The translations under genes were made by a program, and so were the position numbers. 8,429 nt of DNA, from the NCBI GenBank assembly GCA_022759065.1, contig JAEMPZ010000096.1, positions 1-8,429 of the forward strand. The letters run 5' to 3'. The notes below the pieces were generated by a model. The model was not told the origin of the DNA. It was given only the letters and a program-made list of their open reading frames with translations, and did not search any database. Each line of letters starts with the position of its first letter. Within the stretch, counting starts at the first letter, position 1. The stretch comes from Acidobacteriota bacterium (lineage in GTDB: Bacteria; Acidobacteriota; UBA4820; DSQY01). Of this stretch, positions 1,624 through 2,915 are shown piece by piece.

Positions 1624-1860
1624 TGCTTACTCGCGAGTGTACATCCGTCAACGAGCCATGGGAAGAGGCTTTCAACTTCGCGCGGCGAAGATTCGCGAGT
1701 CGTGGCGGGCCATTCAAAAAAGGGGCTCGCGGAAGTGCATTGCTAATTCGTTGCGGAGCAGAAAAATCTAAAGTATCGGATTAGGTTTTTTTGTGTGCCC
1801 ATGAGTGCTGTGAAATGCCCGTGGATGTTAGGTCCTGGCACATAAAACTTTTCCGCGTTC

Positions 1861-1896
1861 TTTGTGGAAAACTCTGTGGAAAACGTTGTGGATAAC
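1861..1896 (+). repeat. Three tandem 12-bp iterons, each carrying a DnaA box
   Basis: The units at 1861-1872, 1873-1884 and 1885-1896 share the core TGTGGAWAAC. The DnaA boxes are TGTGGAAAA (1863-1871), TGTGGAAAA (1875-1883) and TGTGGATAA (1887-1895). These are reverse complements of TTTTCCACA and TTATCCACA, so all three fit the TTWTNCACA consensus, and the third is the canonical high-affinity box. They point the same way at exactly 12-bp spacing. No further good box is seen; TGTGAAATG (1809) and CGTGGATGT (1820) are only poor matches. The role (replication origin, DnaA-regulated promoter or DnaA-titrating site) is inferred. Confidence 0.75.
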
Positions 1897-1968
1897 CTCC
1901 GAAGTGAAGGCAGGGCAAGCAGATTACGGAGGTTGCACTCATATTCAGCATGGTAACGTTTCTGCATT

Positions 1969-1988: not shown

Positions 1989-2915
1989 CTAACTCCCAGC
2001 GCTTAAAGGACTTTGCTTGCGCCAGGTAAAGGTCCACCATTCGCCGTCACTCCTCTTGTCGAAAACCTCTAAAGCGCTTGCTATTGCTATGTTATTAATG
2101 TCCGTCCCCTTTTCGCTCGAGATGCCGCTTCCGATAAGAAAACCTCCGGGCGAAACTCGCGCGCAAAGGTCAGGGAAGATCTCCGCCAGCGTCTCGGCGA
2201 GGATGTTGGCGAAGACGCAATCAAAGCTCTCGTCCACGTCACCGGCGCTGCCCGTTAGAATGGTTACACCGGCCCCGTTGAGGGCCGCCGTTTCATTCGC
2301 CACTCTGCAAGCCTCTGCATCGTTGTCGCAGGCCACAACGCGGGGACAGCCGTCCAGGAATGCCGCGACGGCAAGTATTCCCGAACCGCAGCCGACATCG
2401 AACACGCTTTTGGGCGTTGCCGGAAGCCCTTCCCATGCGCGCAGGCAAGACGCCGTCGTGTAGTGTTCGCCGGTTCCAAAAGCGCAACCAGGCACAAGCC
2501 TAATAGAAATCCTCTCTTTCCAAGGGCTTTCGATTTTTTCAGAAGGCAGCACCACGAAGCGCCTCCCGACGCACAGCGGCGCCACCGTCTCCTGATAACG
2601 CGCCGCCCAGTCAATGGCAGGCTCACCTTCCCACGCCAGATTCACGCCGGGATACCGCCGCCGAAATTTTTCGATGGAAGGGCGGGAAGAGCCGCAGTAG
2701 ACGCGCCACTGTTTAGGTGAAATCTCCCACATCGCCTTCGCGCCCGATGCTCGAAGCTCGTCCCAAAGCTCCGAAGGGAGCGGGCCTTGCGATTCGACTA
2801 CCAGAGCTTGTTCAGGTTCCGAGAAAGAGGAGGGAGAGCCTGGGGAGCCCGAAGTGGTTAAGCGCCGCCTGGCGCGCGAGCCTTTCAACGGTTTTGTCGA
2901 GGACTTCTTTTTCAA
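1989..2915 (-). CDS. prmA: Ribosomal protein L11 methyltransferase
   Basis: PrmA is a cytoplasmic AdoMet-dependent enzyme that methylates amino groups of ribosomal protein L11. Numbering from the start used here (308 aa), the sequence shows the family's GTGEH motif (147-151; GTGTH in E. coli), followed by a TT pair. The AdoMet-binding loop DVGCGSG is at 173-179, the acidic ACD end of strand beta-2 is at Asp197, and the catalytic-site FANILAE is at 235-241. The start is uncertain. There is no ATG before codon ~62, which would cut into the N-terminal L11-recognition domain. I chose TTG at 2915 because GGGAGG lies 8 nt upstream. That overlaps orf233 by 104 bp and adds a basic, Ser-rich leader unlike the ~293-aa E. 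coli protein. A rare CTG start at 2804 would give a more typical ~271 aa. It is the last gene of the operon. Confidence 0.88.
   Translation of the reverse strand: MKKKSSTKPLKGSRARRRLTTSGSPGSPSSFSEPEQALVVESQGPLPSELWDELRASGAKAMWEISPKQWRVYCGSSRPSIEKFRRRYPGVNLAWEGEPAIDWAARYQETVAPLCVGRRFVVLPSEKIESPWKERISIRLVPGCAFGTGEHYTTASCLRAWEGLPATPKSVFDVGCGSGILAVAAFLDGCPRVVACDNDAEACRVANETAALNGAGVTILTGSAGDVDESFDCVFANILAETLAEIFPDLCARVSPGGFLIGSGISSEKGTDINNIAIASALEVFDKRSDGEWWTFTWRKQSPLSAGS

Follow-up and report, generated by a model that had tools for sequence, protein, structure and literature searches.

What does a compact, regularly spaced group of DnaA boxes do between prmA and a transglutaminase-like protein gene in an Acidobacteriota genome? 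The stretch analysed here (8,429 nucleotides, hereafter the window) comprises one entire contig, C70, of a 1.91-Mb assembly that consists of 275 contigs and is 86.5% complete. In Escherichia coli, spent DnaA is stripped of its ADP at two chromosomal loci, DARS1 and DARS2. Outside the E. coli group, the reset of DnaA from the ADP form to the ATP form is, as far as we know, largely open. The results presented below favour, with slightly better than even confidence, a DARS-like chromosomal element that would recharge DnaA and has four box sequences, one inverted and three in tandem. An earlier sequence-only reading had called the site a candidate replication origin or DnaA control site, or else a switch for a neighbouring gene; its DnaA control site fits this explanation, and its origin and its transglutaminase switch are not supported.

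The box array and its surroundings

The three DnaA boxes at 12-bp pitch reported in the sequence-only reading are present (Table 1). In order of position they read TGTGGAAAA, TGTGGAAAA and TGTGGATAA, with 3 bp between neighbours, and the window has no other TGTGGAWAA site. Three such sites contrast with 0.07 expected, and none of 200 dinucleotide shuffles contained three, which bears out the earlier remark that chance was an unlikely source. The intergenic gap is also AT-richer than its surroundings, as had been noticed, with a GC content of 0.45-0.47 (200-bp windows, 1700-2099) versus 0.57-0.63 in most flanking windows. A fourth DnaA box, inverted and with 2 mismatches, lies 5 bp from the first unit and was overlooked in the earlier reading. 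The array forms the centre of a conserved region that spans about 140 bp.

In the whole 1.91-Mb assembly, pairs of TGTGGAWAA sites separated by 3 bp are unique to the array (2 overlapping matches), and the reversed pattern of two boxes 3 bp apart gave 0 matches. Perfect TGTGGAWAA sites number 21 in the assembly: 3 at the array, 3 just upstream of dnaA and 15 elsewhere. A scan of positions 1560-2060 revealed no promoter-like or terminator-like pattern. Between positions 1740 and 1800, the sequence AAAAATCTAAAGTATCGGATTAGGTTTTTTT can form a weak stem, with runs of T on each strand; it was absent from the output of the terminator scan, and may act as a terminator in both directions, placed between the element and the transglutaminase gene.

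Table 1. Coordinates of the element, its boxes and the adjacent genes in the window
Feature	Position	Strand	Basis
Whole conserved DARS-like element (putative)	1804..1940	-	Match to model R2 (E 6e-19 in own genome; window among the sequences used to build R2) and alignments
Inverted DnaA box TTTTCCGCG, 2 mismatches, in the place of DARS box I	1849..1857	+	5 bp to next box; TTTTCCAC-like boxes there in most relatives
Direct DnaA box TTTTCCACA, in the place of DARS box II	1863..1871	-	Exact match; geometry
Direct DnaA box TTTTCCACA, in the place of DARS box III	1875..1883	-	Exact match; geometry
Extra direct DnaA box TTATCCACA, outside the E. coli DARS core	1887..1895	-	Exact match; degenerate in several relatives
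GTGCAA motif, a conserved arm located to the side of box III	1933..1938	-	Columns rank with the best conserved in the 25-sequence alignment
prmA (ribosomal protein L11 methyltransferase), upstream neighbour, start codon approximate	1989..2822	-	Pfam PF06325, E 7e-50
Transglutaminase-like protein gene, downstream neighbour, cut by contig end	3..1583	-	Pfam PF01841, E 4e-22; unlinked to the element in most relatives

Conservation, neighbours and fixed spacing

The earlier reading had suggested aligning the gap between prmA and the transglutaminase gene in relatives, with lack of conservation of the 12-bp units in close relatives as part of what would refute its interpretation. A comparison of 12 genomes of the same order (G001-G012) revealed that the element is conserved. 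A prmA gene was detected in 9 of the 12, and in all nine the array follows it: eight prmA loci show this directly, and in G007 a prmA tail followed by the element is found on contig C4, the main prmA locus ending at a contig edge. G001 and G010 yielded neither prmA nor the element; in G008, where prmA was not found, an element lies beside a PPK2 gene. The transglutaminase-like protein, which carries an N-terminal beta-propeller-like part, was matched in 11 of the 12 genomes at E values up to 0.001, some of these matches being partial or weak. Where its gene is away from prmA it has different neighbours, such as a rho-like gene (identified by eye) in G003 and G006, and no box cluster was found at those of these loci whose upstream flank was readable, with single boxes in four. 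Within the order, the element stays with prmA and not with the transglutaminase gene, and the proposed switch for that gene has accordingly been discarded.

A sequence-only model (R1) built from 9 elements was searched against 297 genomes of the phylum. Matches at E values up to 0.01 were obtained in 164 of the 297, many of the weak ones being other DnaA-box clusters, some of which flank dnaA (for instance in G124, G282 and G091); matches below 1e-6 were obtained in 37 genomes, the order contributing 11 by a count of the listing. A second model (R2), built from 25 elements and including no E. coli sequence, was run on 40 chosen genomes and matched 27 at E values up to 0.001, many of which had contributed sequences to the model. 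These were 11 of 13 genomes of the order and 16 of 17 other members of the phylum, some of the 16 matches being weak or beside dnaA (G282, G124, G021 and G134). The case for an ancient, universal element is limited, because R2 matched 0 of the 10 genomes reached through loci from the transglutaminase search. The element occurs in up to three copies per genome in family f1 (G006), and its neighbours vary from copy to copy: PPK2 (G007 and G008), FtsK (G020 and G290), trehalose synthase (G006) and, in G016, an OPT transporter gene on one side and a prmA-like gene on the other. Its orientation relative to the neighbouring genes also varies between copies.

In the alignments, the element shows on the minus strand of the window a GTGCAA motif followed after about 40 bp by three direct boxes spaced 3 bp apart, of which the extra one comes first; 5 bp separate the last of them from the inverted box, and a less conserved tail follows. 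Several relatives (G016, G020 and G091 among them) have a degenerate extra box and retain the three-box core. Taking the gap between the two direct boxes of this core and the gap to the inverted box as a pair, (3,5) was the unique best of 121 gap pairs in all 25 aligned elements. This alignment (A5) omits 8 of the 19 distant loci L087-L105, including the three that have no inverted box, as well as the near-duplicates L083, L109 and L111. When the 14 order elements of A5 were taken together with all 19 distant loci, (3,5) was the best gap pair in 30 of 33 (all 14 of the order elements and 16 of the 19 distant loci). The distant loci had been located with models built on (3,5) spacing, which favours it. 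A set obtained independently of any model, consisting of the window and of elements recognised next to prmA (nine in all), has gaps of 3 and 5 bp throughout. The three exceptions (L090 in G143, L096 in G206 and L105 in G084) all belong to family f44; they keep three tandem boxes at 12-bp pitch with the inverted box missing, and may represent a natural variant that has lost the head-to-head pair.

Two control sets were used for the spacing. In 22 dnaA loci, 18 triples with up to 2 mismatches were spread over 11 gap pairs, (3,5) appearing once. In 1.31 Mb of long stretches, several of them chosen because they bear an element, 4 of 5 triples had the (3,5) spacing and all four were elements. Two other candidate features were rejected. 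An RNA hairpin formed by boxes II and I would pair fully in just 6 of 25 elements, with breaks most common at box positions 9, 5 and 1. An inverted repeat upstream of GTGCAA stood out in 4 of 23 elements (no more than 2 of 60 simple shuffles reached it there), with no shared sequence.

Likeness to DARS1 and DARS2 and the proposed role

Several gaps around uvrB and mutH of E. coli K-12 were scanned for box triples. One was found in the bioD-uvrB gap, which we take to be DARS1 (boxes at L212 1108 (+), 1122 (-) and 1134 (-); 2 mismatches at (3,5)), and another in the rppH-mutH gap, which we take to be DARS2 (boxes at L213 3136 (+), 3150 (-) and 3162 (-); 3 mismatches); the uvrB-ybhK gap has no DARS-type triple. 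In both regions the gaps are 5 and 3 bp and the orientation is that of the window element. These triples agree with the core rule in the available text of PMC5742627, in which DARS1 and DARS2 have three-box cores of equal spacing, boxes II and III pointing one way and box I the other. The window has these three DARS core boxes (the inverted one with 2 mismatches), and the spacing and box I orientation recur in 30 of the 33 element loci and in both E. coli regions. This geometry, two direct boxes 3 bp apart with an inverted box 5 bp further on, is the decisive argument for the DARS-like reading. Like DARS1 and DARS2, the element is intergenic, and in G125 its copies lie far from dnaA; in its own genome it is on a different contig from dnaA. 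Moreover, the further good boxes of the rppH-mutH region lie on the box III side, the same side as the extra box and the GTGCAA arm. The acidobacterial element differs in its extra direct box, its GTGCAA arm, its presence in up to three copies per genome and its phylum. The f44 loci devoid of the inverted box and the 2 mismatches in the inverted box of the window count against the DARS-like reading, as do the bias of the models towards this spacing and the choice of the two E. coli gaps from several that were scanned.

When R2 was run on 23 kb of E. coli sequence, the DARS1 region ranked first (22.3 bits) and the DARS2 region second (16.4 bits), followed by datA (13.3 bits, a small margin below DARS2) and another box cluster (13.1 bits). 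The match to DARS1 also takes in a GTGCAAGC stretch that lines up with the GTGCAA arm, which may be due to chance. The DnaA residues Leu290, Asp269 and Arg285 are kept in the three proteins of the order that were compared, but these residues are common to DnaA proteins generally and carry little weight.

By analogy with E. coli, ADP-DnaA would bind to the direct boxes, and a DnaA molecule on the inverted box would meet its neighbour head to head through the AAA+ domains, loosening the ADP. The nucleotide would then leave, and the empty DnaA would drop off and take up ATP, ready for another round of replication. Stabilisation or regulation of the complex might fall to the remaining direct boxes and the GTGCAA arm. 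A functionally essential head-to-head DnaA pair is described in the accessible part of PMC10380432, and DARS1 is active in vitro with no added factors according to that of PMC5742627.

The several good boxes close together, the presence of up to three copies in a genome (G006) and the f44 loci, which keep direct boxes and lack the inverted one, would all suit a DnaA titration site, at which the boxes hold DnaA and delay initiation with its nucleotide unchanged. Titration as the sole explanation is nevertheless unlikely, since it needs neither fixed gaps of 3 and 5 bp nor an inverted box, yet these are kept in 30 of 33 loci. The head-to-head mechanism of recharging would need those fixed gaps. 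The multiple copies in some genomes and the f44 loss of the inverted box make titration possible as a second or alternative role.

Action on neighbouring genes, as a DnaA-dependent regulator or terminator, would be in keeping with the position of the element, which follows prmA in the order and ftsK in G020 and G290. This proposal is quite improbable, as the neighbours (PrmA, PPK2, FtsK, trehalose synthase and others) and the orientation of the element differ between copies, and the pattern scan of the window gap was negative.

It is very unlikely that the element inactivates DnaA by promoting ATP hydrolysis, in the manner of datA or otherwise. The datA locus of E. coli is likewise an intergenic DnaA-box cluster away from oriC, and its action depends on IHF, as described in the text available of PMC5742627. 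However, its box arrangement differs from that of the element, no (3,5) triple was found in it at up to 3 mismatches, and it scored below both DARS regions with R2.

Sequences similar to DARS are found in many proteobacteria (PMC10380432, accessible part), and the DARS2 core is described as limited to gamma-proteobacteria related to E. coli (PMC4245941, accessible part). DARS is mentioned solely as an E. coli feature in the portion available of PMC10316083. A literature search that covered few subscription papers, some sources being available in part, found no report of DARS outside Proteobacteria and no paper dealing with DnaA-reactivating sequences in Acidobacteria. Judged by its sequence, the acidobacterial site would be a DARS-like element new outside the Proteobacteria, and not a proven DARS. 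A conserved DARS-core geometry in another phylum provides a concrete, testable sequence for the reset step of DnaA.

DARS2 requires IHF and Fis. It is conceivable, although doubtful, that DNA-borne recharging of DnaA is ancient and shared by descent between Acidobacteriota and Proteobacteria, with the extra box and GTGCAA arm of the acidobacterial element replacing the IHF/Fis region of DARS2. The three f44 loci without an inverted box, together with the soft evidence on the origin and on dif given below, lower the confidence in shared descent. If true, control of replication timing by the nucleotide switch would be older and wider than the Proteobacteria.

Position relative to the replication origin

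The array is probably not a replication origin. In its own genome, dnaA and dnaN are located on another contig (C16), and the gap between them (L001 760-980) contains TTCCACAGGAACTACTACTACTAG before dnaN. This sequence combines a box-like site with CTA repeats and resembles the unwinding module of BUS, the origin unwinding system. The DnaA-trio is described as 3'-GAT-5' beside DnaA boxes (PMC8287927, available text), and its complement is CTA. As the sequence-only reading had noted, inspection by eye found no DnaA-trio (CTA/TAG repeat) beside the window element; CTACTACTACTA is present in the dnaA-dnaN gap instead. The element therefore shares tandem DnaA boxes with BUS and differs from it in the repeat, which its own genome has in the dnaA-dnaN gap. 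Three boxes also precede dnaA in this genome; like the element, the cluster upstream of dnaA in the same genomes has two direct boxes and an inverted one, but with other gaps, for example 2 and 2 bp in the own genome. Among the dnaA-dnaN gaps inspected by eye, the six of family f1 (L024-L029) all keep a CACAGG-nn-CTACT motif before dnaN, and the four of the other family (L030-L033) keep ACT- or ATT-rich repeats with no adjacent box.

The positional evidence comes from one genome, G125, which is a single contig; the skew is flat in G126 and too weak on four contigs of order relatives. In G125, dnaA is located at 83-1387 and the elements at 907,941 and 1,136,912, that is, 0.91 and 1.14 Mb from dnaA. 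From dnaA to about 980 kb the sampled GC skew is positive, and past that point it is mostly negative. Both halves contain exceptions: 10-kb bins at 815 and 900 kb are slightly negative, bins at about 1.13, 1.20 and 1.25-1.29 Mb are positive, and so are stretches at 2.155 and 2.30 Mb. This pattern points to a terminus switch near 985 kb and to an origin, as the minimum of the cumulative skew, between about 2.05 Mb and dnaA at the contig start. An origin, or half of a bipartite origin, would be in line with a box cluster in an AT-richer intergenic stretch, but it is highly improbable given the origin-like dnaA-dnaN gap elsewhere, the absence of a CTA repeat by eye beside the window element and the proximity of the G125 elements to the opposite skew switch; the origin away from dnaA put forward earlier has been abandoned on the first and last of these grounds.

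A dif-like site is found in G125 at 982,412, with the elements 74 and 155 kb away. It is a soft landmark: with a proteobacterial pattern it scores 20, the same as the best control stretch (20). A second dif pattern, written after the G125 site had been seen, scores 22 of 22 there and has matches in 3 of 25 genomes, being perfect solely in G125. Both G125 elements, at about 908 and 1137 kb, flank the terminus skew switch, one on each side.
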